In this document: positions 3,557 through 30,624 of the stretch, piece after piece | Numbering within the stretch: the first letter of the stretch is position 1 | Layout of the letters: each line of letters opens with the position of its first letter | DNA from: a virus | IMG/VR virus record: IMGVR_UViG_3300047560_000364 | Coordinates: 1-33,379 of that record | Direction: 5' to 3' (one strand) | DNA: 33,379 nucleotides | Program-made: the position numbers and the translations under genes | The notes under the pieces: generated by a model | Seen by the model: only the letters and a program-made list of their open reading frames with translations | Database searches by the model: none | What the model was told of the DNA's origin: nothing

Positions 3557-4753
3557 TTATTGGAATGTTAGGTTAGAAACAGCGATTTCGCCTAAGTAGT
3601 CAGCAGCGTTACCGAAGCTAGATGCTGTGTTTGTCAACTCAACATAACCGTAACGAGTCATAAATGATACGACTGGTTCGAATGTTGATGGATCTAGAAC
3701 AACACCAGATGACATCAATGGGATGTATGGGCAATAGAATGCCGCTGCATCTGTTTCTGATGTACCTTTGTAACCAACTAGAACTGGTTGTGTATCTTGT
3801 GCATAGCTGTTAACGAAAACACGCATAGCACCGTTCAATGTACCAACAAACTTAGTGTTTGTAGGAGCTTCGAATGTACCTTCTGTTGTACGAGCAAATG
3901 CAGAAGTAGTTGCAGATTGCAATACTGTCAATGCAGCTGGAGAAACAACAGCCCAATTACCTGCGCCACGACGAGTGCGTTGAGCGATCAAGTTAGCAAC
4001 ACGGTTGATAAGAACAGCTAGAGCAGCGTGTTCGTCACCAACGAATGTAGCTGTACCAGATACAGCAGCTTGGTTGTATGTGTATTCTGTTGTTGCCAAT
4101 GTTGACAATGACAATAGAATTTCTTGGTCGATTTCAGCAGTAATTTCTTGAGCAAGAGCGGCCATGATTTCTGCTTCAACGTCAATACCATGTTGGCTTT
4201 GTGCGTCTTGAGCAGCTTCGAATGTCCAACGTGCTTGCAACTTACGTGACTTAGCTTCAACAGCTTGACGCAAGATTTGTACGCTGATTTGCTTACCACC
4301 GTTGCCTTCTAGAGCAGCAGTATTATTGCCACCGTAGATGCTTGATGATGAGCTATCTTTAGTTTGTGTAGAATATGCTTGAGCAATCTTGAATGGGCTC
4401 AATGCTTCTTCACCAGCTGTTACGCTAGTTTGAGCAGCACTGTTATCCTGCAATGATTGTGCATAACGTACACGTAGAGTATGGATTTGACCAACTGGAC
4501 CTGTCATTGGCTGAACGCCTACCAACTCGTTAGCGATAACTGTTGGCATTACACGACGGATAACTGGCAAAATCACACGGTTTAATGTAGCGATGTTACC
4601 TGCAGTTGTTGTACCAGCTGAAGATTCAGATAGTAGTGACTTTTTGGTGTTTTCTAAGATAACACCCATTGTTGAGCGGCGAGTACCTTTAAGACCTTCT
4701 AACAGGGCTTCTTTAGTCTCATCCCAACGGCTTTCTAATAGAACTTGTGACAT
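3557..4753 (-). CDS. 23: Major capsid protein, gp23 family
   Basis: This is a 398-residue homologue of T4 gp23 (521 residues), the hexameric shell protein. The N-terminal region matches the family: a cleavable leader, then residues such as NRVILPVIRRVMPTVIANEL and VQPMTGPVGQ. T4 prohead protease cuts after (L/I)xE before a small residue. LSE-S at residues 41-44 fits the expected maturation site, and two more matches lie in the leader (LLE-S at 5-8, LLE-G at 17-20). The start has AGGAG ten bases upstream. The gene follows the scaffold gene, as in T4, and is followed by a strong terminator. The shorter length implies that the T4 insertion region is reduced. No gp24-type vertex paralogue is visible in this window. 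Identification is secure; the exact cleavage position is inferred. Confidence 0.97.
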   Translation of the reverse strand: MSQVLLESRWDETKEALLEGLKGTRRSTMGVILENTKKSLLSESSAGTTTAGNIATLNRVILPVIRRVMPTVIANELVGVQPMTGPVGQIHTLRVRYAQSLQDNSAAQTSVTAGEEALSPFKIAQAYSTQTKDSSSSSIYGGNNTAALEGNGGKQISVQILRQAVEAKSRKLQARWTFEAAQDAQSQHGIDVEAEIMAALAQEITAEIDQEILLSLSTLATTEYTYNQAAVSGTATFVGDEHAALAVLINRVANLIAQRTRRGAGNWAVVSPAALTVLQSATTSAFARTTEGTFEAPTNTKFVGTLNGAMRVFVNSYAQDTQPVLVGYKGTSETDAAAFYCPYIPLMSSGVVLDPSTFEPVVSFMTRYGYVELTNTASSFGNAADYLGEIAVSNLTFQ

Positions 4754-4784
4754 TTATATAATCTCCTAAATTATGTCTTTAATT

Positions 4785-5879
4785 TTATAGCCCTGCCAAA
4801 CGTCTAATGTCAATCACGTTATCACGTGCTTCGACTTCAACTGGCTTGGTGGCAGTTTTATTACCAGTAACTTCAACGCTTTCTTTGATTACTTGCTTTG
4901 AAGATTTGTTCTCAGTAGCGTTGTTTAATACTGCTGGTAAATACTTATCGAAAGCGGCTTGTAGACGAGGTGTCTGGACGCTTTCTAGTAAATCCTTCAT
5001 CACTGTTGCTTTTTCTTCGTTTAAAGAACCTAACAACTCGCCCATGACCTTTGTACGTTCATTGGACTCTTTGATGATACGGATTTCACGTTCTTTTGAT
5101 TCAACTAACTGCTTTGCAGTTTTAGCTGATTTGATAGATTCAGCTAACTGAACATCCTTAGCTTGTAGTTGTGCGAACAACTTACGAGTTTCAGCCTTCT
5201 CTTGTAGATAAGTTGTGCTGAATTCACTAGCGAAAGATTCGAAAATACGGCGACCAAAATCGTTTTCACGAGCAGTCTTAATATCTTCTTTCAATTGGCT
5301 CATTTCACCCTTCAAGTGCTTAGTAACAGCTTCGTTCATCTTAGCAGCACTCTTAGTCACAAATTGTGTCTTTAGTGTTTCTAATTGTTTACGTCCTTCT
5401 GCAACTAACTTGACCTTAGCTTCAACAACTGCTTGCTTGTCTTGTGCGAATTCTTTGATTTCACGTGACAATGCATGAACAACGAATTGTTCTAGCTTGC
5501 TTTGGCTTTCTTTTTGGATCTTGCGCTCTGCACGTAGTTCTTTGATTTCTTCTGATAACTTAGTTACCATGAAATTATTGAACTTTGTTGCATTCTCATG
5601 CAACTTGCGCTTTGCAGCAACACGGTCTTCGTTCATTGCTCGTCTTTCAACATTGAATTCTTCAATCTCTGCTGATAGACCATCTGTTACCATCTTGTCT
5701 AGGGCTTCTACCATTACGTTCTTATCATGTTCATAACGTTGTGCGAATTCCTCACGCAATTCAGCACGTACTTGTTCCTTAGCTTCGTTCAACTTAGATT
5801 CCCATGCTTCATTCAAAGCAACAGAAGTTTCTTCGTTGATTAAGCCAGATTCAAGTAATGGTTTGATAGCATCTAACAT
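4785..5879 (-). CDS. 22: Prohead core scaffolding protein, gp22-like
   Basis: The gene encodes 364 residues, almost entirely charged alpha-helix and coiled coil, placed between protease and capsid genes exactly as T4 gene 22 (269 residues). Scaffold gp22 fills the prohead core and is degraded by gp21 during maturation. Nine sites match the prohead-protease pattern (L/I)xE before A or S: after residues 10, 24, 32, 214, 247, 260, 271, 299 and 333. Residues about 60-205 contain roughly four related units of 35-40 residues built around a phenylalanine-valine, then EIKEF pattern, so the rod appears to have grown by internal duplication. The ATG at 5879 has AGGGG just upstream. The assignment is supported by synteny, composition and cleavage sites rather than close sequence identity. 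Confidence 0.88.
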   Translation of the reverse strand: MLDAIKPLLESGLINEETSVALNEAWESKLNEAKEQVRAELREEFAQRYEHDKNVMVEALDKMVTDGLSAEIEEFNVERRAMNEDRVAAKRKLHENATKFNNFMVTKLSEEIKELRAERKIQKESQSKLEQFVVHALSREIKEFAQDKQAVVEAKVKLVAEGRKQLETLKTQFVTKSAAKMNEAVTKHLKGEMSQLKEDIKTARENDFGRRIFESFASEFSTTYLQEKAETRKLFAQLQAKDVQLAESIKSAKTAKQLVESKEREIRIIKESNERTKVMGELLGSLNEEKATVMKDLLESVQTPRLQAAFDKYLPAVLNNATENKSSKQVIKESVEVTGNKTATKPVEVEARDNVIDIRRLAGL

Positions 5880-5890
5880 GCATAATCCCC

Positions 5891-6526
5891 TTATTTAATT
5901 TTAAGATCCTTGATGAGGCGCATTACTTCCTCCTTCAGGTATCTCTGTACTCTTGCATCGCTCTGTGCGTCTTTTGCAATCTCAAGCGTTCTATGACCAT
6001 GACGCATATTCATCATCCCTTCATAGATTGCTTTAGGATAAGCATTAGGAGCACTCGGTTGTGCAACGATATCCACAGTGACAATTTCAAAGTCACTGAC
6101 ATGGCCATTCATGTCATTCACGTTTCCGCTACCACGACTTGATACGCCTAGTTTGACACCACTCTCCAACATAGTAGACACTAACTGTCCCATTGGAGTT
6201 GGTAAAATCTTTAGCTTGCCGAAACCATTAGCGCCATCCATCCACATTTGAGTAATCATATGTGATACACGGTCTAAGTTGATTTTTAAATCATCTGGGT
6301 GATCGACTTCGCCTAATACTGAGTAACCGCCGGAAATTTGTTCGTTAAGAGTATTGACAGCATTATCGATTTCAGATACGGGATAAACACGCTCATTGGC
6401 GTTCTTTACCCCACCCTGAATGAAGATCCCTTTCATATAAAGGGACTTCTTACTACCTTCACCTTCACTTTCGACAACCATTGCGGCTCTGTCGAAAGTT
6501 AGATGCTCTTTAAGATACAAAGCCAT
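5891..6526 (-). CDS. 21: Prohead maturation protease, gp21 family
   Basis: This 211-residue protein is the same length as T4 gp21 (212), the serine protease that matures the prohead and shares a fold with herpesvirus assemblins. Visible motifs are GEVDHP with His76, and GVSSRGSG with Ser129/Ser130, the expected His and nucleophile regions. SDFEIVTVDIVAQPSAP (144-160) is the conserved segment after them. The gene sits between the gp67-like core protein and scaffold gp22, as in T4. Substrates should be gp22, gp23 and core proteins, all of which carry candidate sites here. Spacing to both neighbours is 11-14 bases, consistent with one operon. The ribosome-binding site is weak. The assignment is firm; which of the two serines is the nucleophile is not resolved. 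Confidence 0.95.
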   Translation of the reverse strand: MALYLKEHLTFDRAAMVVESEGEGSKKSLYMKGIFIQGGVKNANERVYPVSEIDNAVNTLNEQISGGYSVLGEVDHPDDLKINLDRVSHMITQMWMDGANGFGKLKILPTPMGQLVSTMLESGVKLGVSSRGSGNVNDMNGHVSDFEIVTVDIVAQPSAPNAYPKAIYEGMMNMRHGHRTLEIAKDAQSDARVQRYLKEEVMRLIKDLKIK

Positions 6527-6540
6527 TATCTCAGGTATCC

Positions 6541-7407
6541 TTACTTAACAATCTTCTTAGTGCTTTTCACTTTACGTGATTCACTAGTGATTGACTTCTT
6601 GTTTACACCGTCATCACCTTGCTTTGGCTTAGCAACTGATTCACCCTTTTCAGAGAAGTTACCTTTGCCTGGAGCATTCTTGTAGTTACCAGGAATGTCT
6701 TTAACTGCAGGGTTTAACAAACCACCTTTAGTGCCTTCGCCAGAAGCTACGCCACCTTTAGCGATATTAGCTGCTGTTGCGCCGTTACCACCAACTTTAG
6801 GGCCGCTTGATACGATTGACTTGTTGTTTACACCGTTGTCACCGTGTGTTACAGAAACTTTCTGCAACTGTACAGCTTCCATCATTTCTTCGTCACCGAC
6901 TGGCTCTTCTTCGCCGCCGAATTCTTCGCCGCCCATGTCGTCGCCGCCCATGTCGTCACCACCGAATTCTTCGCCGCCCTCTGAACCCATCATTTCTTCG
7001 AATTCAGCCATTAGCTCGTCTAGTTTGTCTTCTAATTCTACAACGCGGTCTTCTAAGTCGCCTTCTGGAACTTCACCGTCGTCTTCGCTGCCCATGTCGA
7101 TGTCAGCAAATTCATCATCTTCTTCAGTCATGCCTTCTTCTTCAGCACCGATTTCGTCTAATAGACCACCGACTTCACCGCCCATGCCCATGTTTTCTTC
7201 TAGTTCTTCTTCAGTACCTTCTTCTAGTTCTTCTTCAGTACCTTCTTCTAGTTCTTCTTCAGCGGATTCTTCTAATTCTTCATCCATCATTGATTCATAG
7301 ATTTCACGGCTCTTTTCAACCACGATATCATGGAACAATGCTTTAGCTTGTTCTTCATTCTCATTGATAATCAAATCAATAAGTTGTTCAAATTTTTTAT
7401 TATCCAT
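6541..7407 (-). CDS. 67: Acidic prohead core protein, gp67-like, enlarged
   Basis: This is a 288-residue, extremely acidic protein. The first 40 residues (FEQLIDLIINENEEQAKALF and following) resemble the start of T4 gp67 (LIEAIKSNDLVAARKLF), an 80-residue core protein degraded during head maturation. Residues 43-74 are four 8-residue repeats of the form EELEEGTE, and three of them create LEE-S or LEE-G sites matching the prohead protease. Residues 75-175 remain acidic with GGDDMGG and GGEEFGG repeats. The C-terminal 110 residues change to basic and Gly/Lys-rich, with a duplicated motif (GDNGVNNKSI at 189-198, GDDGVNKKSI at 264-273). The start has TTAGGAG upstream. Position between portal and protease fits genes 67/68. 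The N-terminal match is by eye; the C-terminal part is unassigned. Confidence 0.75.
   Translation of the reverse strand: MDNKKFEQLIDLIINENEEQAKALFHDIVVEKSREIYESMMDEELEESAEEELEEGTEEELEEGTEEELEENMGMGGEVGGLLDEIGAEEEGMTEEDDEFADIDMGSEDDGEVPEGDLEDRVVELEDKLDELMAEFEEMMGSEGGEEFGGDDMGGDDMGGEEFGGEEEPVGDEEMMEAVQLQKVSVTHGDNGVNNKSIVSSGPKVGGNGATAANIAKGGVASGEGTKGGLLNPAVKDIPGNYKNAPGKGNFSEKGESVAKPKQGDDGVNKKSITSESRKVKSTKKIVK
7186..7281 (-). repeat. Four tandem 24-bp repeats in the gp67-like gene
   Basis: The minus strand encodes four consecutive 8-codon units (EELEESAE, EELEEGTE, EELEEGTE, EELEENMG). The middle two are identical in protein and nearly identical in DNA. Each unit regenerates an LEE motif followed by S, G, G or N. 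Confidence 0.9.
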
Positions 7408-7460
7408 TGTTTAATCTCCTAATGAAATGGCTTTGTAATAATACTTAGTGCGTATCATAA

Positions 7461-7488
7461 AAAAGAGCACAATAAGTGCTCATTTTTT
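7461..7488. terminator. Bidirectional-looking intrinsic terminator
   Basis: A 6-bp stem GAGCAC/GTGCTC (7465-7470 with 7476-7481) with a 5-base loop is flanked by an A run on the left and a T run on the right. On the minus strand it follows the 77-residue gene by about 20 bases and has six T after the stem. Confidence 0.8.
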
Positions 7489-7502
7489 GCGTTTTTTGCA
7501 AT

Positions 7503-7736
7503 TTATAGTGAAGGCATTGCGCCTTCTTCAGGAACCGGTGTATATTGCTTACGGATCTTCTTCAAGTTTTGTACACGTTCATAGTTACGAACGTCATTCA
7601 TCTTGCGTAATTTTCTGATTTGTTTCAATGTAAGTTTAGTCTTACGGGATTGCTTCCACTTAGGTTTGCTGTTGTCTTTAGCAACATCCTGATAAGCATC
7701 GCTCTTTGGAGCGTCATACATTTCAAATAATTTCAT
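7503..7736 (-). CDS. Small basic protein next to portal, unknown function
   Basis: The gene encodes 77 residues, strongly basic, with a helix-forming core (KLTLKQIRKLRKMNDVRNYE). It lies where T4 has gene 67, immediately after the portal gene and before the acidic core protein. It is not acidic like T4 gp67, so it is not a direct counterpart. No ribosome-binding site precedes the ATG at 7736; instead a CATAAATA box ends five bases upstream. It is followed by a terminator. Context suggests a role in the prohead core or portal initiation, perhaps pairing with the very acidic neighbour. That is inference. It is probably a real gene because of clean packing between portal and terminator. Confidence 0.7.
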   Translation of the reverse strand: MKLFEMYDAPKSDAYQDVAKDNSKPKWKQSRKTKLTLKQIRKLRKMNDVRNYERVQNLKKIRKQYTPVPEEGAMPSL

Positions 7737-7741
7737 ACTAT

Positions 7742-7749
7742 TATTTATG
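7742..7749 (-). promoter_or_regulatory. Late-type promoter box CATAAATA overlapping portal stop
   Basis: The minus strand reads CATAAATA, seven of eight positions of the T4 late box. It overlaps the portal stop codon and ends five bases before the ATG at 7736, so a transcript starting at the usual distance would be leaderless or nearly so. Confidence 0.4.
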
Positions 7750-9511
7750 CTACTGGTGGTGCAGCACCCATTCCGCCCATATCAGCTGGCTGTCCAACTG
7801 CGGGTTGTCCTGCCATATCTTGTGGCATTTGTTCCATACCTTCGTCTGGAATCTCGTCAAGTGTATCAGCATCAGCTTCCATATCACCCTGACTAATACC
7901 GATACTACGTAAGTCGCTACCAGATGCTTCGGAATCTTCTGGTTCTTCACGTTCTTCAAACCACATCTTCTGATTTTCTTCGATTTCCTCTTCTGTCAAT
8001 CCTAAGAATCGCTGCAATGCAAAACGCTTACTGATGTATGGGAATGCTTCCATTGTTTGGAATACTGAAACACGTGCTGTATCTAGTTCTGACTGACGAT
8101 ATGCAGCAAAGTTCTGTGGTGCGTTGAACTTAATGTCAAACAAACCACCGTCAATATTCAATCCTCTCCAACGCATGAACAACTTGAACTCATCATTTAA
8201 CTTCTGAGCAATGTAGTTCTGTAGACGTTCGCAGTATTGATTGAAGCGGAATTCTTGAATCATTGCAGTACCGACTCGTCCATCACTGAGGGGAGTAGGA
8301 TTATCTTCTGGCCCTTGTGGCAAGTAAGAACTTGGTACACGCAAACCTCGTGCCAATCTGTTGTTGAAATAACGCAAATCATCAATTTGACCTAAGTTGT
8401 CGCCACCTGGCAATGTCGTAACGTCTGAGCCACGACCATCAGCAGTAACAGGGAAGAAGTAATCTTCGTTAATACTCAATGGGTTGTATGTTGCATCCAT
8501 TACTGATTGACCACCTTGAATGCTTGGGATTCTACGTTGGTGAATCTCATTCTTAATACGGTCAACGAAAGCCATAGCCATGTGACTTGGCATGTTACCA
8601 ACGTCAATCTTGAATACTCTGCGTTCAGGAGCACGTTGTATGCGATAGATTAGAATAGCATCTTCAAGCAATTCTTTTTGCTTGAAAACTTTGAAAATGT
8701 TTTCTAGTACTGATTGTCCGAAAGGCCAGTAGCGGTCTAGACCTTCTGTTAAACTCAAATGAACAACGTGCTTCGCATCAACTGCGGCTTCATTCAAACC
8801 CATTGTGAATCTGCTACCAGAACCACCACCTGCTGAACCAGCATTTGGGATTGTATAGCTAGCTGCACCACCAAATCCACCTGGGCCCTGCGGTGTCATA
8901 AAGTCAGTTGTTGTTTTCTCTGCTATACTTAAGTTTTGTAGGTTAACGTTAATGTCTTTAATAACATACTGCTCAGGAAGCTTTCCTTCACTTTCGTTAA
9001 CGATAACTTTGACTACTTTAGTCATGTCAACCCAGTATAACTTGAAGTTTTCTGGGTCTCTGACGAATACTTGATCGCCGTATTTCAATGTATTACGGAA
9101 GATTTTGAATGTTCTAGTATCAAATTCATTCAACTTACACCACTGTTGTAATTGCTTTTTGATTAGTTCTACTTCGTGGGGAGTAGGATCTTCTCTGAAT
9201 TCAATCTCAAAAGGAGTGTTGTTTTGTTCGTTTTTCTGTGTACTGAACTCAGCAATAATGTCTAAACATGCGTTGATTTCTGCATCAACGTCCATCATTT
9301 CATACTGATTATAACGTTCAATACGGTTAGGGTGACCTGTATAGACTTCAGGTAAACGAGAACCATAGTTCTTGTATCCAAAGTCTGCATTAGCATATCC
9401 TTGTGCAGGATCTACTGGACTGTTCCATGCCCCAGAGTTACTGTTGGCACCGGATATCGGGCTATTAACGCCGGTTAAATTGGGAGCGCGGAAACGTTTC
9501 TTATAAGACAT
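7745..9511 (-). CDS. 20: Portal vertex protein, gp20 family
   Basis: This 588-residue homologue of T4 gp20 (524) forms the dodecameric portal at the head vertex through which DNA enters and leaves. Family features include RYNQYEMMDVDAEINACLDI near residues 65-84, the DRYWPFGQSVLENIFKVFKQ helix region, and the segment with YRIQRAPERRVFKIDVGNMP. A Gly/Ser-rich insertion lies near residues 210-235, and the C-terminal 60 residues are acidic followed by Gly/Ala/Pro-rich sequence. Gene order portal, core protein, protease, scaffold, capsid is that of T4. There is no clear ribosome-binding site; a GATAAATA box lies just upstream of the ATG. Identification is very secure. Confidence 0.97.
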   Translation of the reverse strand: MSYKKRFRAPNLTGVNSPISGANSNSGAWNSPVDPAQGYANADFGYKNYGSRLPEVYTGHPNRIERYNQYEMMDVDAEINACLDIIAEFSTQKNEQNNTPFEIEFREDPTPHEVELIKKQLQQWCKLNEFDTRTFKIFRNTLKYGDQVFVRDPENFKLYWVDMTKVVKVIVNESEGKLPEQYVIKDINVNLQNLSIAEKTTTDFMTPQGPGGFGGAASYTIPNAGSAGGGSGSRFTMGLNEAAVDAKHVVHLSLTEGLDRYWPFGQSVLENIFKVFKQKELLEDAILIYRIQRAPERRVFKIDVGNMPSHMAMAFVDRIKNEIHQRRIPSIQGGQSVMDATYNPLSINEDYFFPVTADGRGSDVTTLPGGDNLGQIDDLRYFNNRLARGLRVPSSYLPQGPEDNPTPLSDGRVGTAMIQEFRFNQYCERLQNYIAQKLNDEFKLFMRWRGLNIDGGLFDIKFNAPQNFAAYRQSELDTARVSVFQTMEAFPYISKRFALQRFLGLTEEEIEENQKMWFEEREEPEDSEASGSDLRSIGISQGDMEADADTLDEIPDEGMEQMPQDMAGQPAVGQPADMGGMGAAPPVA

Positions 9512-9518
9512 AGTTATA

Positions 9519-9526
9519 TATTTATC
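9519..9526 (-). promoter_or_regulatory. Late-type promoter box GATAAATA before the portal gene
   Basis: On the minus strand GATAAATA ends seven bases before the portal ATG at 9511, in the 17-base gap after the tape-measure gene. The predicted start of transcription would fall at the start codon. Confidence 0.45.
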
Positions 9527-9528
9527 TA

Positions 9529-12261
9529 TTAAGCCTTGGCATGCTTTAATATGTTACTGAGGGTATCGTTAGCTGAATCTAAATGACTAATCATGTCATC
9601 AAACTTCGTAGCCATTACTTCTACTATTAGTTTTTCTAAACCACTCATGTCAATTGAAGGTTGCGTGACTGTGTTTTGGTTAGTAACTTGTGTGTTGCTC
9701 AGTGCAGCTAGACTTTCTTTTTTCACATCCTTGATGAAGTCACCCATGTTAGGCATAGGGATAACTGCTTCATTTCCGTGTAACATAACAGGGTAACCGG
9801 AATCTGGACCATCAAATACGCCGCCACCGTGTGCTTGTTTAATTGTACCCTCTTTGAAACCTTCATGTTGTTTCATTGCCGCTAGCATAGCTTGGCGCTG
9901 TTCTGGTGTTAGTTCTGCCATCGCAGTAGTTTCTTTTGCGCCAGTTGCGTTTAGAATTTGCTGAATGTACGCACGAGTATTGTTTTCCGACGAAGGTGCA
10001 TACTTACTAATAGCAGAACCAATCGATAGTCCTTTATACAAATCACTTTCAAACAACAAACGTTCACGTGCTTTTTCACCAGTTGCCATGTCAGGAAACA
10101 CGGCAAATCCACCTGCTGTACCGATAGAACCATACTCTCTGGAATACTTACCGTCACGCAAGTTGCCAGGGTTGTTGTTTCTCCAACTTATCGTTCCACC
10201 TTGACGAACTTCTTTTTTACCATCAGCACTCGTAATCTCAGTGGTTAGGGATCTATTGCCCTCCATATTTTTAGCAGCAGACAAAGGAGCACCGCCGCCT
10301 TTACCGCCACCGGTAGCGCTACTAGTTGCAGCCGATCTAGAGCTTGGGGTAGCCTCCATACTAGCTTGTTCTTTTTCTAGCTCCTGGATTCGCTTATCTT
10401 CAGCTTGTAGTTTTTGTTCGTTATCTAAAATTTGCTTACGTTGTTTTTGTAACGCTGCATCTTTTTCGGCTAAATTGAATTCTTTCTCAGATTTTTTCTT
10501 TTCGTGTTCTGCTTGAGCTAACTCTTTCTTTTTAACTTCAAGATCCATGTAGGCTTTTCTTCTATCTTCGCCCTTCATTGTACTCAAGTTAGCAGTTAGA
10601 TCATTAATCTCTTTTTGCTTTATCTTTATCTGCTCGTTTGCTTTGTCACGTATGTCTAGTTGCTTACCAATTTCTGCTTCAGTAGCTTCAAGTTTTGCTT
10701 TGGTTGCAATCAAGTCTTCTGCGATAGCGGCTCTAGACTGGCGTGTAGACTCTAAATCACTAGCAACATCGTCAGCATCTCTAAACGCATCTGATAAATG
10801 AGTTTGACCCATTCCAGGAATCTTAGATGATATCGTATCAATAATCTTAGCAAGACCTTTACCGAATCCAAACATAGCACGAGTTAATTTCTCAAACATA
10901 CTCACAACCATGTTACCAACTTCGTATATACCTTTATCCGCCGCAATACGCAATGCACGTGCTTCTTGTTCAGTTTTAACGTTTGTATCTAAGCGATCTT
11001 TTTCAGTGTTCATCGCTTCTTTCAACTTCTTCTGAACTTCTTGTCTGGTTTTACCTTCCATCATTTGCATACCGATCAAACCTTCATTTGACCCGGTCAA
11101 TGTACCAATTTGCTGTCCAGCTTGATTATACGCTACACCCAACTGATTCATGTTTCTACGCATACCGGCTGCTGTATCTTTCAAGCCGTCGTACATGTCA
11201 ATTTGACCCTTTTGGGCTTTCATCGCATTCTCGTAACCTTTGTTTTGCGTAGAAAGCATAGCACGAGTACTAGCTTCTCCCACTGCAGCACCCTTGTTGA
11301 CGATTTGTTCCATCAAGTCATTGGCATTTTGCTTACCAAATGTCTTTTCATAACTTGCCATATAACTACGCAAGTTAGCTGCTTCTTCTTTCTTTCCAGA
11401 TAACTCTAACTGTCGCAAGTATTCATTATAGCGATACTCGCTCATTTGTTGATCCATTAACTTTTGTGCTTCATCACGGCTCATACCAGTTAACTCTTGC
11501 AACTCACGCAATGTAACCATGTACTTAGATGATTCTTGTCTTAGTTCTGCTTCAGTCTTAGCTTGTGATAGACCCAATTTTGCCTGTTTGGCGATGTAGT
11601 CAGCAGTGGCATCACGCATTTCTTCTGCGCCGTAACCGATGTGCGCCATAGCACGTTCGATTTCGTTATTAGGACCGATCATGCCCTGAATAACGCCAAG
11701 CAGTTTCTCTTTACCTGCTGTTACACTACCACCGAATGCTGCCAATTCAGGAGCATTCTTTTTCAACATTGCGCCGAACTTTTCGGCTTCTTCTGATGTT
11801 AAGCCTACTTTGTGTAGGTCATCTCTTAGTTGTTCTAAGCTACCACTTACAGAGCCTGCTTCAGCAAGTTCTCTGTATGATTTCATCAATGCATCATTTT
11901 GCTTTAAGCTGGCAGCTGCAACTTGACCGAAAATCTTAATTAGGCCGCCGATAACAAAGCCCAGTGGTCCTAACTTCCCTACAAAATTACCAACGCCATC
12001 AGCGGCACCTGTAACTGAACCACCGAACTTAGATAACCCTTCGCCACCTGCAGCGAAGTTCTTAGTCATATCAAGCACAGACGAACGCAATGCTTCGTTC
12101 ATCTGTTTAAGTCGCTGAGATGCTTCTTCTGCTTTAGCGGCGGCTTGTTTATCAGCTTCAGCTTTGGCGCCAGCCTCACGGCTACCGGTACGCATTGCGT
12201 CCGAAAAGGCGTCCACTAAAGCACGATGTTCAGGGGTGATGAGAGGTTTTTCGTCAGCCAT
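9529..12261 (-). CDS. Tail tape-measure-like protein with muramidase-like domain
   Basis: This is a 910-residue, largely helical protein. A Gly-rich hydrophobic stretch lies near residues 75-120, followed by long amphipathic helices and a charged coiled coil around 520-655. Residues about 690-805 form a compact domain beginning SWRNNNPGNLR and containing YGSIG, GFAVFP and YAPSSENNT, a pattern found in phage virion-associated peptidoglycan-degrading domains. Residues 811-835 (HGGGVFDGPDSG, then MLHGNEAVIP) resemble a C-terminal motif common in tape-measure proteins. The likely role is to set tail length and open the cell wall during injection. Alternatives are a gp29-type hub protein or another internal virion protein. 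It starts at 12261 without a clear ribosome-binding site and is transcribed away from the gp26-like gene. No enzyme activity can be proved from sequence alone. Confidence 0.72.
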   Translation of the reverse strand: MADEKPLITPEHRALVDAFSDAMRTGSREAGAKAEADKQAAAKAEEASQRLKQMNEALRSSVLDMTKNFAAGGEGLSKFGGSVTGAADGVGNFVGKLGPLGFVIGGLIKIFGQVAAASLKQNDALMKSYRELAEAGSVSGSLEQLRDDLHKVGLTSEEAEKFGAMLKKNAPELAAFGGSVTAGKEKLLGVIQGMIGPNNEIERAMAHIGYGAEEMRDATADYIAKQAKLGLSQAKTEAELRQESSKYMVTLRELQELTGMSRDEAQKLMDQQMSEYRYNEYLRQLELSGKKEEAANLRSYMASYEKTFGKQNANDLMEQIVNKGAAVGEASTRAMLSTQNKGYENAMKAQKGQIDMYDGLKDTAAGMRRNMNQLGVAYNQAGQQIGTLTGSNEGLIGMQMMEGKTRQEVQKKLKEAMNTEKDRLDTNVKTEQEARALRIAADKGIYEVGNMVVSMFEKLTRAMFGFGKGLAKIIDTISSKIPGMGQTHLSDAFRDADDVASDLESTRQSRAAIAEDLIATKAKLEATEAEIGKQLDIRDKANEQIKIKQKEINDLTANLSTMKGEDRRKAYMDLEVKKKELAQAEHEKKKSEKEFNLAEKDAALQKQRKQILDNEQKLQAEDKRIQELEKEQASMEATPSSRSAATSSATGGGKGGGAPLSAAKNMEGNRSLTTEITSADGKKEVRQGGTISWRNNNPGNLRDGKYSREYGSIGTAGGFAVFPDMATGEKARERLLFESDLYKGLSIGSAISKYAPSSENNTRAYIQQILNATGAKETTAMAELTPEQRQAMLAAMKQHEGFKEGTIKQAHGGGVFDGPDSGYPVMLHGNEAVIPMPNMGDFIKDVKKESLAALSNTQVTNQNTVTQPSIDMSGLEKLIVEVMATKFDDMISHLDSANDTLSNILKHAKA

Positions 12262-12271
12262 TTTTTGGTCT

Positions 12272-12279
12272 TATAAATA
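12272..12279 (+). promoter_or_regulatory. Late promoter box TATAAATA (perfect T4 consensus)
   Basis: The plus strand carries the exact T4 late -10 octamer TATAAATA, 53 bases before the ATG of the gp26-like gene. AGGAG at 12323-12327 serves as ribosome-binding site. The box lies in the divergent region between the tape-measure-like and gp26-like genes. Confidence 0.75.
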
Positions 12280-12292
12280 GTTTGCTATATTG

Positions 12293-12300
12293 TATTTAGT
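12293..12300 (-). promoter_or_regulatory. Late-like box ACTAAATA driving the minus strand
   Basis: The minus strand reads ACTAAATA, 31 bases before the ATG of the tape-measure-like gene. It differs from TATAAATA at two positions. The same octamer recurs on the minus strand at 18889-18896 upstream of gp55. Confidence 0.4.
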
Positions 12301-12332
12301 ACAAAGAAATACCCATAAAATTAGGAGCCCAC

Positions 12333-13169
12333 ATGGCCGACACAGCAAACAACCCATTAAGACAATACTTTCGCAGACCAGCTTTATATCTAAAACTACC
12401 ATCAAACGGTGTAGGATATAGTCAAGGTGCGATTGAATTCCCAGAAAACCGTGAATTGCCAGTATACCCGATGACTGCAATTGACGAGATTACTAGCAGA
12501 ACCCCAGACGCATTGTATAACGGCTTAGCTGTAACTGAGATTATCAAAAGCTGTGTTCCATCAATTAAACGCCCCTGGGAAATTTTAAACGTTGACTTAG
12601 ATCCGATCTTAGTTGCTATTCGTATGGCTACGAATGGTCAAATGATGGAACTAGAAACTGTATGTCCTAAGTGTGAAGAATCTAGCAAGTTTGACTTGAA
12701 CTTATCAGGAGTATTAGCTAGCTTTAAGCCCGGAGATTACAATAGTCTATTAGATATCGATGAGTTTATCCAAGTAAAGTTCCAACCATTGAACTACAAG
12801 CAAATCAATGGCGCAGGCGAAAGTCAATTTGAGATCCAACGCATGTTGAACCAAGTAGATTCTATTGAAGATGCAGAAGAACGTAACAAAAAGACTTCGG
12901 CAATCCTAACAACCATCAATGAAATGGCTCTTGACTTGATGATTGATACGATTGAGTATATCAAAACCCCAGACTCTACTGTTTTAGACAAGAATTTCAT
13001 TAGAGAGTTTCTAACTAACTGTGATAAAAACACATACAATAAGATTAGAGACACCAATGTAGAACTACGTAAGAGCACTGAATTGAAGCCATTAGAAATC
13101 AAGTGCTTACATTGCAGTAACGAGTACACCCAACCCTTTAACATCAACATTTCTAATTTTTTCGAATGA
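12333..13169 (+). CDS. 26: Baseplate hub protein, gp26 / T4_baseplate family
   Basis: This 278-residue protein is recognisable as the T4 gp26-type base plate family (T4 gp26 is 208 residues), required for hub assembly. Family features include YLKLPSNGVGY near residue 18, PMTAIDEI at 46-53, and the segment PWEILNVDLDPILVAIRMAT. Two CxxC pairs (Cys111/114 and Cys258/261) could form a zinc site. The ATG at 12333 has AGGAG five bases upstream and a perfect late box further up. The last codons (S-N-F-F-E-stop) contain T TTT TTC in frame, and the stop overlaps the ATG of the next gene by four bases. Both features suggest coupled or frameshifted expression with that gene. Confidence 0.85.
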   Translation: MADTANNPLRQYFRRPALYLKLPSNGVGYSQGAIEFPENRELPVYPMTAIDEITSRTPDALYNGLAVTEIIKSCVPSIKRPWEILNVDLDPILVAIRMATNGQMMELETVCPKCEESSKFDLNLSGVLASFKPGDYNSLLDIDEFIQVKFQPLNYKQINGAGESQFEIQRMLNQVDSIEDAEERNKKTSAILTTINEMALDLMIDTIEYIKTPDSTVLDKNFIREFLTNCDKNTYNKIRDTNVELRKSTELKPLEIKCLHCSNEYTQPFNINISNFFE

Positions 13170-13196
13170 GGCTTCTTCTCCTTGGTTCCGAGGAGA
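13157..13196 (+). promoter_or_regulatory. Candidate programmed -1 frameshift signal
   Basis: The heptamer T TTT TTC (13157-13163) is in the X XXY YYZ phase of the gp26-like frame, two codons before its stop. Slippage by -1 leads into CGA then ATG of the 75-residue gene. A hairpin follows: 13177-13184 pairs with 13189-13196 (8 bp including one G-U) around a GTTC loop, 13 bases after the slip site. The expected fusion is 353 residues. Confidence 0.6.
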
Positions 13197-13393
13197 TCAA
13201 GTCACTAATCGATCAGATGGAACGTGAGTGCCATGACATTAAATCAGGAGCAATGAAAATGTCATGGTATATGCGTGGCGGTGTATCCTATGAGGATATA
13301 CTTAACATGAGTATTGATGAGAGACATTCCATAAGTAAGATTATTGAGGATAACTTAGAAACTACTAAGAACTCAAAGATGCCATTCTTCTAA
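13166..13393 (+). CDS. Small hub-assembly-type protein, probable frameshift partner of gp26
   Basis: The gene encodes 75 residues if started at the ATG at 13166. Visible features are a helical N-terminus, then WYMRGGVSYEDILNMS and a C-terminal helix ending NLETTKNSKMPFF. I recognise this as a small protein type found beside gp26 in T4-like phages, at a position like T4 gp51, but I cannot prove homology to gp51. The ATG overlaps the gp26-like stop (ATGA) and has no ribosome-binding site upstream. It must therefore be made by coupling, by -1 frameshifting at 13157-13163, or both. The frame is exactly -1 to the upstream gene. No other long open frame follows. Confidence 0.8.
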   Translation: MRLLLLGSEEIKSLIDQMERECHDIKSGAMKMSWYMRGGVSYEDILNMSIDERHSISKIIEDNLETTKNSKMPFF

Positions 13394-13457
13394 TCTCTGT
13401 TCTTTAGCCGTTATTAGTCATTTATACTAACTTAGGATTAATTACTTTCTATCTTAA

Positions 13458-13476
13458 AGATGAGCTTCGCTCATCT
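13458..13476. repeat. Inverted repeat between convergent genes
   Basis: AGATGAGC (13458-13465) pairs perfectly with GCTCATCT (13469-13476) around TTC. A related, weaker element with the same GCTTCGC core lies at 13488-13508. No T run follows on either strand, so simple intrinsic termination is not clear. They may block read-through between the converging transcripts. Confidence 0.6.
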
Positions 13477-13564
13477 ACCTTCTCATAATACTTCGCTTCG
13501 CTCAGTATCATGTTCGGTAAGAGTTTTCAATTCAATTTAATTTTTTCATCACTATAATTAGTGG

Positions 13565-13940
13565 GGTATCAATTGCCGCTTAGAAGCCATGGTAGTGCTA
13601 TTCAAGCACTACCAATGGTTAAGGGATTTGCCATGCCCGTCATCCGTGCTATCTATTCCCGTAAACGTTGACCCTTTTCGTCACGTTACGCCACCGGTTC
13701 CCCTGTAAGGTTTATGGACTGTAGTTGAATCTAATCAATATCTCATTTGTATTGACCGACCCTGAAACGCATGTTTTATAGCATCAAGATAGAGTAGCTA
13801 TAAACTCATTGAAGGTTCGCTTTGACGAGAGCCTTCTCGGTGTGTCGATACTATCACTAGCATCTATACTCCAGAATCTGACGGCACAGCACAATCTGTA
13901 CAATCTCAAGGAGGTCTTGCAATCAAGACTACGAATTTTT
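13565..13940 (+). ncRNA. Candidate structured non-coding RNA
   Basis: A TATAAT box at 13553-13558 precedes a series of plus-strand stems. 13585-13599 pairs with 13605-13620 (15 bp with one bulged A, 5-base loop). 13735-13741 pairs with 13749-13755 (7 bp, one G-U, 7-base loop). 13775-13782 pairs with 13797-13804 (8 bp). 13811-13818 pairs with 13829-13836 (8 bp, one G-U). 13914-13919 pairs with 13924-13929 (6 bp), and a T run follows at 13936-13940. The density of stems and lack of a reading frame suggest an RNA of about 375 nucleotides. I compared it by eye with tmRNA, RNase P RNA, tRNA and group I intron hallmarks and found no convincing match. The -35 region is poor and the terminator is weak, so boundaries are uncertain. 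Confidence 0.4.
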
Positions 13941-13969
13941 ATATTATGCGAACTTTGTGTCTGCTTTTA

Positions 13970-14515
13970 TTAAGTGGTTGGAATTGAAATGTTTGACGTG
14001 GTGTCTGGTGTGCTTGAATATAGTTTTACTAAATCTGCGTTTTTGTCGAAAAAGCTAGAATGTTCCATGATTACCCAATCGCCGTACTTCTTGCTACTAT
14101 AGAATAGGCAGTTATCACCCATCCATGTATGCTTGCCTTGTACAGCAACGTATTGACCTTTGCGATTAAACTTCATAAAAAGAATGTTTAGATCACCTTC
14201 GTCTTCAACGTCAAGTAATTGATCTAGCCACGAATCAAGTTGACTACACTCACCCGTAAGAGTTAAGTGCCACGGAAAGTCAGCGTAGAATTTGCATTCA
14301 ATATTCATCTTAGTAAACGATTGTCCTGGAACAATGTCTCCTTTGAATGAACGAATCTGACCTTCGTGCAAGAACTGCGTCCTTGATTGATTCTTGCCAC
14401 CCACATAAGCCCCAGAACCCGGAGCACGAATAAACGACTCTCCGTATAAATCTGATAGAAACTTGGCTACTGTACGTTCGTAACCTGAACCTTTGGCTTT
14501 TTGTGGACTTGGCAT
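13970..14515 (-). CDS. PD-(D/E)XK nuclease, Holliday-junction-resolvase-like
   Basis: The gene encodes 181 residues. The N-terminal 80 residues follow the archaeal Hjc-type resolvase layout: KGSGYERTVAKFLSDLYG (8-25) with Glu13, RAPGSGA (30-36), KGD with Asp60, and IECK with Glu73 and Lys75, then the FYADFPWHL segment. These would be the metal-binding catalytic residues of a PD-(D/E)XK nuclease. The likely role is resolving branched replication or recombination DNA before packaging, the job done in T4 by the unrelated gp49 endonuclease VII. It lies just downstream of gp46 on the same strand, which supports a recombination role. The ATG at 14515 has no strong ribosome-binding site. Another structure-specific or repair nuclease is possible. 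Family assignment is by motif only. Confidence 0.72.
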   Translation of the reverse strand: MPSPQKAKGSGYERTVAKFLSDLYGESFIRAPGSGAYVGGKNQSRTQFLHEGQIRSFKGDIVPGQSFTKMNIECKFYADFPWHLTLTGECSQLDSWLDQLLDVEDEGDLNILFMKFNRKGQYVAVQGKHTWMGDNCLFYSSKKYGDWVIMEHSSFFDKNADLVKLYSSTPDTTSNISIPTT

Positions 14516-14548
14516 ACAACTACTTATACTTGAAAACTGTGCCCAATA

Positions 14549-16621
14549 TTATTCTATATCAACCGCTGTATTATAGCTTGTAAATCCGTTCTCTTTGACG
14601 ACTTTTAAGACGTTTGGTACACGGCCAGCTAGTTCTTCACGGTGAGAAACGAGCCAGATTGACTTTTTACGCTTTCTGCTCATATCTTTGAGAATAGCGA
14701 TTGAGTTTTCGACACCCATAGTGTCTAAACCACTGTCAATCAACTCGTCAATAAACAATGTATTGATAGGTTGATACAAACTCTCCCAAACATCACGGAA
14801 AGCAAACGACAAGCCTAGAATTAGACGGTTACGTTCACCGCGTGATAGATTGTCAAAGTCAAGTTCACGACCTAACTCAGTAATTTCAACTTGTAAGTCG
14901 TTTTTAAACACAACTTGGTGGGGCAAACCGATTGCATCCAAGTAATGTGTCAAACGACCGTTGAGATAACTCAAGTTCTGGTCAATAATCTTCTTACGGA
15001 CAAATGAATCCTTGCTAGTTAGAATGTCAAGCAAGAACTTTTGATGTTCCATTGTCTTTGTTAGCGTATTGATACGTGTGAAGTCAATCGCTTGTAGTGC
15101 ATTAGCTTCCATTTCAGTGATTTGATCCGAGTACGGATCAGTTTCATCACCCTTCTTAGCGATTGCATCTAGTAAGTTATTAACTGTACTACGATGTTCA
15201 ACTGCCTTAGCTTCTGTATCATAATGTGTCTTGGGTTGAGGTCCAGGATTGACAGAACTCAATTCTTTAAGTTGTTCAGCATACGGATCAACTTCTTTTT
15301 CTTTTTCTAAGATTTTTATAGCGATGTTATTTTCATCTGAACCATGACGAATAGCTTCTGCTTCTGTTTTGTAGTGTGTCTTCGGTTTAACTTCCGCAAC
15401 AAAGATTTGAATCTGACGTTGTTCATTCCATTGATTCAACAAAGTAGTTGCATGGAACTGTGCATCCTCTAGCATCTTCTCTTTATCAGCTAAAACCTTA
15501 GTATGTTGTTCATCGTGGAAGTCTTGACCACAAGCATAACACTTGTGCTCTTTCAATGTTTCAATCTCTGCGATAAGTTTTTTGATTAACTTGTCTTCCT
15601 TGTCAATATCTTTAGTAAGACGGGCAAGTTCCTTATCTCTTGCATCTAGTAATGCTGTTTGTTCGTTATATTCTGCTAGGGCACGGTGCGCTTGAATTTC
15701 TTCAACAATGTCAATTGAATCTAACTTAGCTAGTTGATTCTGTAACGTATCCATGTCTTTGTCATACTTTTGTTGCCAGGCTGTTTGTCTAGCAACTAAT
15801 GCATCGTATGTTTCTTGTTGTTTCTTTTTCTCGTTCCAGATGACTAGGTCTTTGTGAGCCATCAACTCAGCATCAATGTCAATTTTGGCTAACTCGTCAT
15901 ATTGGGCTACTAAGTAATTCAAGTCACTTTCATGTTTAGATTGCCATAGGTTCTTACGGCGCTTCAAACTATCAATCTGTTCTTTAACTCGTTTGTTAGC
16001 TTCTTCAACTGCTTTGACTTTGAATTCTTCTTGTTGGATTTCGTCTTTTGTATCTTTCAACATGACTTTGATGACTTCAGCCTTCTCAGATAGCAATGTG
16101 ATACCGAGTAACTGTTCAATGATTTCACGTTGCTCGTTTGACTTAAGAGCTAAGAATGGGTCAGAGTAAGTGTTCAACGCAACAATGTGCTTAAACATGT
16201 CCCCGCCCATGTGAATTACTTTTTCGATTTGAGCTTGTGTTTCCTTATTCTCACCTTGTGCATCGTCTTGTTTTTGCTGTACGTTGTTAACGTAGAAACG
16301 TAAGATGTTCGGCTTACGACCGCGTTCAATCTTATAGTCAATGCCATTAGCAGTGAACTCAAGCGTAACCATCATGGCTTTGCCATTAGTTCTATTGACT
16401 AAGTTATCTTTTCTAATTGAGTTGATCGGGTTACCGAACAAAGCATACGACAAACCCTGAATCAATGTGGTTTTACCGGTACCATTACGAGCACCGTCAC
16501 CACCTAAGTCTAAGTTCTCGCCTAGAATTAGTGTTAAGTCTTGTTTGTCAAAGTCTACTGCTTGTGTGACTTGTCCGATTGATAGGAAGTTTCGTAATGT
16601 TATGCTCTTTAATGTAATCAT
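14549..16621 (-). CDS. 46: Recombination exonuclease subunit, SbcC/Rad50-like gp46
   Basis: This 690-residue SMC-type ATPase is longer than T4 gp46 (560). Motifs are Walker A GARNGTGKT (43-51), zinc hook CYAC with Cys361/364 at the coiled-coil apex, ABC signature LSRGE (592-596), Walker B LFIDE (622-626) and the late His in LVSHRE (657-662). With gp47 it forms the Mre11/Rad50-type complex that resects DNA ends for recombination-dependent replication. The coiled coil contains duplicated segments on both sides of the hook (about 241-276 with 296-333, and 413-454 with 463-504), which accounts for the extra length. The start overlaps the stop of the upstream small gene by ATGA, so expression is coupled. 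Confidence 0.96.
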   Translation of the reverse strand: MITLKSITLRNFLSIGQVTQAVDFDKQDLTLILGENLDLGGDGARNGTGKTTLIQGLSYALFGNPINSIRKDNLVNRTNGKAMMVTLEFTANGIDYKIERGRKPNILRFYVNNVQQKQDDAQGENKETQAQIEKVIHMGGDMFKHIVALNTYSDPFLALKSNEQREIIEQLLGITLLSEKAEVIKVMLKDTKDEIQQEEFKVKAVEEANKRVKEQIDSLKRRKNLWQSKHESDLNYLVAQYDELAKIDIDAELMAHKDLVIWNEKKKQQETYDALVARQTAWQQKYDKDMDTLQNQLAKLDSIDIVEEIQAHRALAEYNEQTALLDARDKELARLTKDIDKEDKLIKKLIAEIETLKEHKCYACGQDFHDEQHTKVLADKEKMLEDAQFHATTLLNQWNEQRQIQIFVAEVKPKTHYKTEAEAIRHGSDENNIAIKILEKEKEVDPYAEQLKELSSVNPGPQPKTHYDTEAKAVEHRSTVNNLLDAIAKKGDETDPYSDQITEMEANALQAIDFTRINTLTKTMEHQKFLLDILTSKDSFVRKKIIDQNLSYLNGRLTHYLDAIGLPHQVVFKNDLQVEITELGRELDFDNLSRGERNRLILGLSFAFRDVWESLYQPINTLFIDELIDSGLDTMGVENSIAILKDMSRKRKKSIWLVSHREELAGRVPNVLKVVKENGFTSYNTAVDIE

Positions 16622-16824
16622 ATATTGTTAAGTCCAATGCGTGAATAGCCTAATTTGCTTTTTAGTTCTTTGCGGCTTTTGCGTTCTTCTTGTTTGTATT
16701 GCTTGATAACAAGTTTTGCGAATTGTTCAAGGTCTTTTGTGATGGGAAGATGTTCTAATTTACTGGTATAAATTTCATCATCTTTCACAAAGAACCCTGC
16801 TTCTTTTGCTAGTTTGTGTATCAT
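16618..16824 (-). CDS. Small gene between gp47 and gp46, unknown function
   Basis: The gene encodes 68 residues, basic and helical, starting MIHKLAKEAGFF and ending KLGYSRIGLNNI. I do not recognise a domain. It overlaps both neighbours by four bases (ATGA at each junction), so the three genes are translated as a coupled set. T4 also has small genes (46.1, 46.2) between 47 and 46, so the position is conserved even if the sequence may not be. A role linked to the gp46/gp47 complex is plausible but unproved. Tight packing on both sides supports that it is real. Confidence 0.75.
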   Translation of the reverse strand: MIHKLAKEAGFFVKDDEIYTSKLEHLPITKDLEQFAKLVIKQYKQEERKSRKELKSKLGYSRIGLNNI

Positions 16825-17834
16825 AGGTTAGTGTAAATCTCTAGCAAAATCTTTTTGTCGAATGTAGCTGATTCGATAGCGTTGATTTGGTCAATGACGA
16901 TTTGGTCTACTGACTCAAACTTCAAATCACCCTTACCTTCTTCTTCAACATGGTCAACCTTCATTGGAATCAACGACATTTCACGTAGGTTGTGTTCGGG
17001 GATAAGGGTTTCACGAATGAAGTTTGCTTCTTCATAACTAATATCAATATCTAGATGTACTCTAACATGACTGTCAGGTAATAGCAAACCCTTAGGGTTT
17101 TCTAAGATTTCACTGAGTTTGTAAACCCTAAACAAGGGCTGCTTCGGCCAGCTATGAAACTCTGGCTCTTTGTCCCACTCTAAAATCATCATGCCACGAG
17201 CATCATCACCTGCATCTGCGTAGTTGTGAGGGAATGCGTTACCAATGTACCAAACGTTTTTCTTTGCTTGACGTTTGTGAAAGTGACCTGAGAATACTTT
17301 ATCAAACCCAGATATCTGGTCTGCGTTAAGTTCCCCGTGATCGGGCATCTCAACCATAGCATTCATGTAAAAGTGTGGTAATTCGAAATGACCGAACAAG
17401 TACTTGCCCTTCATTTCTTTTAACTTCTTGTAATCTTCTTGTACAAGCCACGGTGCAATAGCTACGTCACCTTCTTCAAAGAAGTCGTTGATGATTTTAA
17501 CGTTCGGAAGATGTTTAGCCCACTCAACGGAATGAATATCACGGCGGTCACGATAATACAAATCGTGATTACCGGGTATAAAATAAACAGTGTCAAATGC
17601 TTGATTAAGTTTTTCAAGTGCTTGTAATCCATATTGTAATGTGTGAATGTTGATGCTTGCTCTGTGATGATTCCAATCACCTAAGAAGAAACATGTTTCA
17701 CATTTCTCTTGCTTGGCTTTCTCAATGAACCAATCTACAAAGTTTGCACAGTCTTGATTGTGTACTTGGCTATTTGATTTTAGTCCGAAATGAATGTCCG
17801 TGAAGACAGCGGCTTTATTAAAAAGGTTACTCAT
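16821..17834 (-). CDS. 47: Recombination nuclease subunit, SbcD/Mre11-like gp47
   Basis: This 337-residue protein closely matches the length of T4 gp47 (339). It is a calcineurin-like metallophosphoesterase with all expected metal-site motifs in order: DIH (13-15), GDWNHH (52-57), GNHD (88-91), GHFE (148-151) and GHFHKR (183-188). It is the nuclease of the gp46/gp47 complex that trims DNA ends for strand invasion. Its stop overlaps the start of the next small gene (ATGA). No strong ribosome-binding site precedes the ATG at 17834. A stable hairpin lies 19 bases upstream, between this gene and gp55. Confidence 0.95.
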   Translation of the reverse strand: MSNLFNKAAVFTDIHFGLKSNSQVHNQDCANFVDWFIEKAKQEKCETCFFLGDWNHHRASINIHTLQYGLQALEKLNQAFDTVYFIPGNHDLYYRDRRDIHSVEWAKHLPNVKIINDFFEEGDVAIAPWLVQEDYKKLKEMKGKYLFGHFELPHFYMNAMVEMPDHGELNADQISGFDKVFSGHFHKRQAKKNVWYIGNAFPHNYADAGDDARGMMILEWDKEPEFHSWPKQPLFRVYKLSEILENPKGLLLPDSHVRVHLDIDISYEEANFIRETLIPEHNLREMSLIPMKVDHVEEEGKGDLKFESVDQIVIDQINAIESATFDKKILLEIYTNL

Positions 17835-17852
17835 AGTTGTTAGTATATAGGA

Positions 17853-17878
17853 ATAGGGGTTACGAAAGCAACCCCTAT
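17853..17878 (-). other. Stable hairpin between gp55 and gp47
   Basis: A perfect 9-bp stem (17853-17861 with 17870-17878, ATAGGGGTT/AACCCCTAT) encloses ACGAAAGC, which on the plus strand can close a GAAA tetraloop. It lies 16 bases after the gp55 stop. There is no T run on the minus strand, so it may be an RNA-stability or processing element rather than a simple terminator. Confidence 0.5.
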
Positions 17879-17894
17879 GGTTAAGTAATTTGAC

Positions 17895-18794
17895 CTATTC
17901 TTCGTATGATGTAGAAGAACTAGATTGGCGACTCCAACTTGGATTCAACCCATTGATCTCCAGAATGTCATCACGAATGTTTTGATTGCGTTTCTCAGTG
18001 TTCAATACACGGCAGAAACTGTTAGTAATAGCGGCTGTGTAGTATGCGAACGGGTTAGCTGATTTGGCTTCATTGAATCGTAACCCAACGTATGTCAATT
18101 GTAAAATGGCACTGTTACGCATTTCATCGTTGTATGTGTAGCCACGCCAGTTAAACTTCATAGCGTATTTCTCACACATCATAATGTACATGCGGGCTAG
18201 CTTGTTTGTGATTTGACCGTGATCCTTAGAGAACTCACCTTCTTTCAAATCGCCCTTCCAATGACTCTTACCGATACACTTGAATGATCCAGTGCGACCC
18301 ATTCTGAAATGCTGGAATGGCGGGAAGTTGACCTTAACATGAACCATGTCGTCAACTTCTTTTTTGGTTGTAGTGTCTTCTAAATCTTCAAACAACTCAT
18401 CGATTTCTTCAATCTCAAAGATATCTTTAGCTGTCTTTTTCTTGTCTACTTTACGGGGTGCTTTTGGTGCTACTGGGACATGATCCCAAGTCATAATTCT
18501 GAATACTAAGTCGGTATCTTTGATGGTTGCCGGATCTACTGAATCTTTGACTCCGGCTTCTAAACTTAATCTAGCTGCTCTGTTTTCTTTAGCTTCCTGA
18601 ATGACTTCAGGTTTACTTGCATACTCTAAACTTTGTTTAATCGTGCTATCTGGTAAGTCAACGATGAAGTCATATCTGTGGTCGTTAAGCGGGTCCAAGA
18701 AAGTACAATAGGTTGTTTTGCTACTATGAATCTCTTTTAAGATATCTTTATTGTTTAAGTAATTTACTGGTTTTTTATGTGGTATTAGGCTCAT
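17895..18794 (-). CDS. 55: Late-transcription sigma factor gp55 with large N-terminal extension
   Basis: The gene encodes 299 residues, whereas T4 gp55 has 185. Residues about 177-290 are the gp55-type sigma domain: SHWKG, then KLARMYIMMCEKYAMKFNWRGYTYNDEM, FNEAKSANPFAYYTAAI and EKRNQNIRDDILEINGLNPS. gp55 binds host RNA polymerase core and recognises the TATAAATA late box, and such boxes occur through this window. Residues 1-145 are additional: a globular segment with SSKTTYCTFLDP (24-35) and VFRIMTWDHVP (97-107), then Lys-rich and acidic linkers. The C-terminus ends in Ser and YEE and lacks the SLDFLFE-like tail that ties T4 gp55 to the sliding clamp. GGAG lies four bases before the ATG. The core assignment is firm; the extension's function is unknown. 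Confidence 0.86.
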   Translation of the reverse strand: MSLIPHKKPVNYLNNKDILKEIHSSKTTYCTFLDPLNDHRYDFIVDLPDSTIKQSLEYASKPEVIQEAKENRAARLSLEAGVKDSVDPATIKDTDLVFRIMTWDHVPVAPKAPRKVDKKKTAKDIFEIEEIDELFEDLEDTTTKKEVDDMVHVKVNFPPFQHFRMGRTGSFKCIGKSHWKGDLKEGEFSKDHGQITNKLARMYIMMCEKYAMKFNWRGYTYNDEMRNSAILQLTYVGLRFNEAKSANPFAYYTAAITNSFCRVLNTEKRNQNIRDDILEINGLNPSWSRQSSSSTSYEE

Positions 18795-26731: not shown

Positions 26732-26737
26732 TAAATA
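26730..26737 (+). promoter_or_regulatory. Late-type promoter box AATAAATA before gp25
   Basis: AATAAATA overlaps the stop region of the spike gene and ends 16 bases before the gp25 ATG. AGGAA at 26744-26748 would lie at the very start of such a transcript. Confidence 0.45.
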
Positions 26738-26753
26738 CTAGACAGGAATAATT

Positions 26754-27200: not shown

Positions 27201-27220
27201 AACCGCGTGTTTTTAGGTAT

Positions 27221-27228
27221 GATAAATA
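27221..27228 (+). promoter_or_regulatory. Late-type promoter box GATAAATA before gp6
   Basis: GATAAATA ends 19 bases before the gp6 ATG at 27248, in the short gap after gp25. The ribosome-binding site in the leader is weak (GAGAA). Confidence 0.55.
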
Positions 27229-27247
27229 CATAAAAGAGAAACACGCT

Positions 27248-30610: not shown

Positions 30611-30624
30611 AATAGGTATAACAC

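Follow-up and report, generated by a model that had tools for sequence, protein, structure and literature searches.

The window, that is, the whole 33,379-nt stretch of viral DNA analysed here (IMG/VR record IMGVR_UViG_3300047560_000364), contains a T4 gp26-like gene whose end overlaps the beginning of a small ORF. The question is whether these are two genes or a single gene that is read in two ways. Comparison with relatives argues that this gp26/gp51-family chaperone locus very probably yields a short and a long protein via -1 programmed ribosomal frameshifting.

The junction

The gp26-like ORF (12333–13169, plus strand; 278 codons plus stop) is preceded by the Shine-Dalgarno sequence AGGAG (12323–12327) and would represent the short form, the product of non-shifting ribosomes. 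The junction reads ...AAT TTT TTC GAA TGA GGC..., with TTC as the A-site codon followed by GAA and TGA. The slippery heptamer U UUU UUC (13157–13163) thereby stands in the X XXY YYZ phase, one codon before the stop. Across the main ORFs of the window, 8514 codons in all, it is the single in-phase U6Y. Behind it lies a 6-nt spacer, GAAUGA (13164–13169), which contains the frame-0 stop (TGA, 13167–13169). The small ORF (13166–13393) is in the -1 frame relative to the gp26-like ORF, and the codons read after a slip, CGA ATG AGG CTT ..., remain open to the stop at 13391–13393. This -1 extension (13163–13393, plus strand) has 76 codons which, with the first 277 of the gp26-like ORF, would specify a long form of 353 residues.

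The first-pass annotation, made from the sequence of the window, had proposed a candidate -1 frameshift site at 13157–13163, a small gene in the -1 frame with an ATG overlapping the stop and no ribosome-binding site, and an uninterrupted F-F-R-M reading into the small protein. The sequence agrees with each of these observations, and the phase, the open extension and the conservation in 70/70 sequences described below confirm the site.

The simplest alternative is that of two genes, the small ORF being translated from its own ATG (13166–13168) by termination-reinitiation while the heptamer is incidental. In the window this ATG overlaps the stop as ATGA, so that for this genome alone coupled reinitiation is a candidate, but no Shine-Dalgarno sequence precedes the ATG (AACATTTCTAATTTTTTCGA).

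Conservation in close relatives

The close family comprises 80 IMG/VR loci with 52–73% amino acid identity to the window protein. Together with the window these give 70 distinct sequences in 50 clusters at 80% nucleotide identity (median pairwise nucleotide identity 59%). T TTT TTC is found at position -10 from the stop in 80/80 relatives and in 70/70 distinct sequences including the window, and in all 80 relatives the -1 frame is open for exactly 74 codons beyond the stop. A junction ATG is present in 11 of the 70 distinct sequences, always as ATGA. The remaining 59 have none, and their earliest potential start usually lies well within the conserved extension domain; yet the frame is open and conserved through the slip site from F-F-R onwards. 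The ATG at 13166–13168 is not conserved and is probably not a genuine start. Judged by these sequences, most relatives do not have the small ORF as a gene in its own right; their conserved -1 coding frame is open and lacks a start of its own. The first-pass annotation had suggested aligning related junctions; in these the heptamer and the -1 phase are kept, the extension stays open and a separate start is generally lacking.

The extension shows 70% mean column identity and an invariant FFR start. Divergence after the slip site amounts to 0.34, 0.21 and 0.55 at codon positions 1, 2 and 3 of the -1 frame, a protein-coding pattern, while frame 0 beyond the slip site has about six stops per sequence. 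The slip codons themselves are TTT in 70/70 and TTC in 70/70, with zero synonymous change. All other residues conserved at 95% or above vary synonymously, their commonest codon reaching at most about 81%, and Phe codons elsewhere in the family are 68% TTT. The two-gene reading leaves the invariance of both Phe codons unexplained.

One might suppose instead that the two phenylalanines, and with them the heptamer, are kept for protein reasons only and that the extension is a decaying fragment. F276 and F277 are indeed among the family's most conserved residues, T4 gp26 included, which has no frameshift. T4 gp26, however, encodes its FF by the non-slippery TTC TTT; since other codons serve there, the needs of the protein do not fix TTT TTC. 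The constant length of the extension in close relatives, its column identity and the third-position bias of its substitutions likewise speak against decay, and we give this explanation practically no credence.

Downstream RNA structure

A two-tier stimulatory stem-loop is predicted at 13170–13203 (plus strand), with a minimum free energy of -17.7 kcal/mol. Its outer stem pairs GGCUU (13170–13174) with AAGUC (13199–13203) and starts 6 nt 3' of the heptamer; the inner 8-bp hairpin (13177–13184 with 13189–13196) starts 13 nt 3' of it. This hairpin had been noted in the first-pass annotation, which considered its 13-base spacer longer than usual. The hairpin is real, but it is only the inner part of the structure, the outer stem having been missed, and because that stem begins at 6 nt the spacing is normal. 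A stimulatory structure may be sought about 5–9 nt downstream, or else a Shine-Dalgarno element upstream, and the window has the former; among close relatives the spacer between heptamer and stem is 4–7 nt. No Shine-Dalgarno-like upstream element was found in the window's clade.

RNAalifold found no common structure in the 70-sequence junction alignment, because the register of the stem shifts between relatives. For this reason each sequence was folded separately against synonymous shuffles preserving the -1 protein and codon usage, and named pairs were counted. The 48 nt 3' of the heptamer fold with a mean of -15.8 kcal/mol and a mean z of -3.11, 63 of the 70 sequences having z<-2, and in the same shuffle test the close family has no comparable fold elsewhere in the extension. 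The named-pair counts, in which relatedness is only partly controlled, gave more paired cells and a higher covariation score than either shuffles or slid registers, the outer helix being 83% paired as against 35–57% in slid registers. Comparison among relatives thus establishes the structure as it does the slip site, its phase and, in most of them, the start-less coding extension. The structure is not universal: strong local 3' stems are evident in cyanophages as well as the window's clade, whereas several enterobacterial jumbo relatives have a weak stem or none.

Distribution in other phages

Among 146 distinct junctions from jumbo phages, cyanophages, Aeh1-like phages and Rhizobium phages, 145 have U UUU UUN in the ribosomal phase: 143 are U UUU UUC, one is U UUU UUU and one U UUU UUG. 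Cultured jumbo phages at 25–35% identity possess the same slip site and a homologous extension; they include Atu_ph07, Phosso, 121Q, PA5oct, RaK2, XbC2, GAP32, SCTP-2 and Munch among others. Several cultured jumbo-phage records have no small gene annotated at the junction, or one with an internal start. The slip site and -1 extension are also found in cyanophages (59 distinct) and in Aeh1/phiAS5-like phages.

This distribution bears on transcriptional slippage, in which RNA polymerase would add one U on the U6 run and part of the mRNA would read into the extension. The run is present (U7 in XacN1), and the resulting protein would be identical. Insertion of a U is indifferent to codon phase, however, yet all 145 runs stand in X XXY YYZ phase; furthermore, a stem 4–7 nt downstream suits a ribosomal stimulator, and U6 is short for slippage by a bacterial polymerase. 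We consider this mechanism extremely improbable.

The cyanophage-type junctions (L097, L102–L181) carry a Shine-Dalgarno-like GGAGG 12–14 nt upstream of U UUU UUC. The upstream Glu codon is GAG in 55/59 cyanophages as against 25% elsewhere, which suggests a dnaX-like upstream stimulator, absent from the window's clade. Their 3' structure is milder (z -2.1). In an Aeh1-like phage (L184, 2265–2441) a gp51-type extension matching phrog_634 (gp51) at 3e-14 follows gp26 in the -1 frame, the junction having no ATG.

Pseudomonas phage Cygsa01 (L100, 2572–3482) is the sole sampled junction outside T4's own branch that lacks the slippery heptamer; its gp51-like ORF begins at a TAATG overlap instead, possibly a switch to coupled initiation. 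This junction, and the ATG which cyanophages have a few codons past the stop, may be cited in favour of two genes. Against the start-less junctions and invariant slip codons of the close family, we still regard two separately initiated genes at the window locus as very unlikely.

Relationship to T4 gp26 and gp51

Profile searches place the gp26-like protein in PF12322 [4e-13; 50 bits against a cut-off of 24.5] and phrog_150 [2e-16]. Its AF2 model (pLDDT 87.9) has BFVD matches to T4-like hub assembly or gp26 proteins; PDB profile and fold searches gave no meaningful match, nor did the model of the extension give a significant fold match in BFVD. T4 gp26 and T4 gp51 both belong to PF12322, and both are given as hub-assembly chaperones (PMC3004832). 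The term "gp26-like hub protein" of the first-pass annotation is better replaced by tail-assembly (tape-measure) chaperone. On the evidence of these profiles the window gene belongs to the T4 gp26/gp51 family and is a putative tail-assembly chaperone. In keeping with such a role, though indirectly, the PA5oct record carries an ESI-MS/MS note on the neighbouring structural protein and the portal and none on the gp26-like protein, as expected of a chaperone.

By hhalign the extension matches the C-terminus of T4 gp51 with a probability of 97.3% for cyanophages and 95.6% for the Aeh1 group; the value for the window's clade is 85.4%, over 33 columns only, and for the cultured jumbo set alone 41%. 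At full length the window's clade scores 15.7% against gp51, so that it is the extension domain and the intermediate lineages that tie the clade to gp51. On phrog_150 the short proteins cover about 5–235, T4 gp51 13–280 and the -1 extensions 231–280. By these profile comparisons the extension of the long form is homologous to the gp51 C-terminus. The gp51 match, the PHROG boundary and the TTC TTT of T4 together indicate that what T4 divides between two genes is a single recoded locus in these phages. The window shares PF12322 with T4 gp26 (short) and gp51 (long), its extension corresponding to the gp51 C-terminus; T4 differs in having two separate genes, no frameshift and FF written TTC TTT. 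This short/long reading of T4 comes from Vladimirov et al. 2022 by way of PMC10885494, which also states, again from that source, that some T4-like phages have separate genes for a short chaperone and a long fusion.

Proposed mechanism

We propose that the majority of ribosomes would terminate at 13167–13169 and release the 278-residue short form. A minority would pause at the stem-loop beginning 6 nt downstream, where the two tRNA-Phe, on UUU and UUC, may each slip back by one base and pair with UUU in both cases. Shifted reading, R-M-R-L-L..., would then run to 13391–13393 and give a long form of 353 residues, whose C-terminal domain would be helical. The slippage itself, its efficiency and the chaperone role we infer from the comparisons above.

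The likely client is the divergent neighbour (9529–12261, minus strand), part of which matches the phrog_2276 tape measure at 1e-18. A long divergent ORF occupies this position in 65 of the 66 loci with enough flank. Match and position lend weak to moderate support to a probable tape-measure protein. If the analogy with lambda gpG/gpGT holds, it would be coated by many copies of the short form and few of the long one, and the extension may recruit tail-tube subunits.

Comparison with known systems

The likeness to lambda gpG/gpGT lies in the strategy of using one frameshifted gene for a short and a long tail chaperone. The lambda slip site, G GGA AAG, is unlike the U UUU UUC of the window. Further differences are that the window proteins belong to the T4 gp26/PF12322 family, that the probable tape-measure gene is divergent and that the 3' stem is pronounced. 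In lambda, few long and many short copies sit on the tape measure and the extension recruits tube subunits (PMC5009743). Read as the source of short and long forms of a tape-measure chaperone, the window locus falls in with the lambda G/GT type rather than departing from it.

For cyanophage gp26 and its "short gp51", every junction examined has U UUU UUC standing in phase and leads into a -1 extension with the same domain. They differ from the window in that the extension is 59–64 codons in nearly all, an ATG is possibly available nearby and the GGAGG stands upstream. For the Vandenendeviridae and Andersonviridae (phage Adele, PMC12846349) a conserved -1 frameshift at a polyT motif of the chaperone gene is predicted, although these are other phage families and the motif is GTTTTT.

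A 2016 review (PMC5009743) has tail-chaperone frameshifting conserved in long-tailed phages "except T4". By contrast, frameshifting appears near-universal in the T4 relatives sampled here, with T4's own branch and a single pf16-like phage as the only ones that lack the site. The first-pass annotation knew of no frameshift established for a gp26-type gene. There is probably a precedent, as PMC12846349 attributes polyT slippery sites in the chaperone genes of T4-like phages to Vladimirov et al. 2022; so far as these sources go, they indicate that frameshifting in T4-like chaperones is partly known already. Tail-chaperone frameshifting being known, and given that credit as it stands in PMC12846349, what we add is the lineage-specific stimulators and the wide sampling.

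We think it likely that short and long chaperones made by frameshifting are ancestral to the whole T4 superfamily, and that T4 and its nearest relatives swapped recoding for the duplicated genes gp26 and gp51. The stimulators would be lineage-specific: the environmental jumbo clade of the window would use a two-tier 3' stem, and cyanophages an upstream Shine-Dalgarno plus 3' stem. The "truncated" or "missing" gp51 would be the -1 extension of gp26. Gp51 has been reported at about 20% length in cyanophages and as missing in Aeh1 (PMC3037559). Frameshifting would explain why the cyanophage protein looks truncated, and the gp51-family match of the Aeh1-type extension would explain the absence. 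Likewise the "baseplate hub" gene, a name given for its homology to T4 gp26, and the "hypothetical" gene in many jumbo-phage records would be one recoded chaperone locus. The window supplies a readily testable frameshift site with a well-defined stimulator.

Remainder of the window

Regions 3557–18794 and 23435–30610 carry a T4-type set of modules: major head protein, head maturation protease, gp20 portal, gp46/gp47-like SbcC/SbcD, late sigma factor, tail-lysozyme hub and baseplate wedge. This gene content marks the window as part of the genome of a T4-related phage, the nearest cultured relatives by the gp26-like protein being Phosso and Atu_ph07. The last 2.8 kb or so (30611–33379) have no ORF of more than 104 residues, no tRNA and no Rfam match. 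Between the extension and a PDDEXK gene (13394–13969) there are repeated CTTCGCT-containing inverted repeats (GATGAGCTTCGCTCATC), which are possibly terminators.
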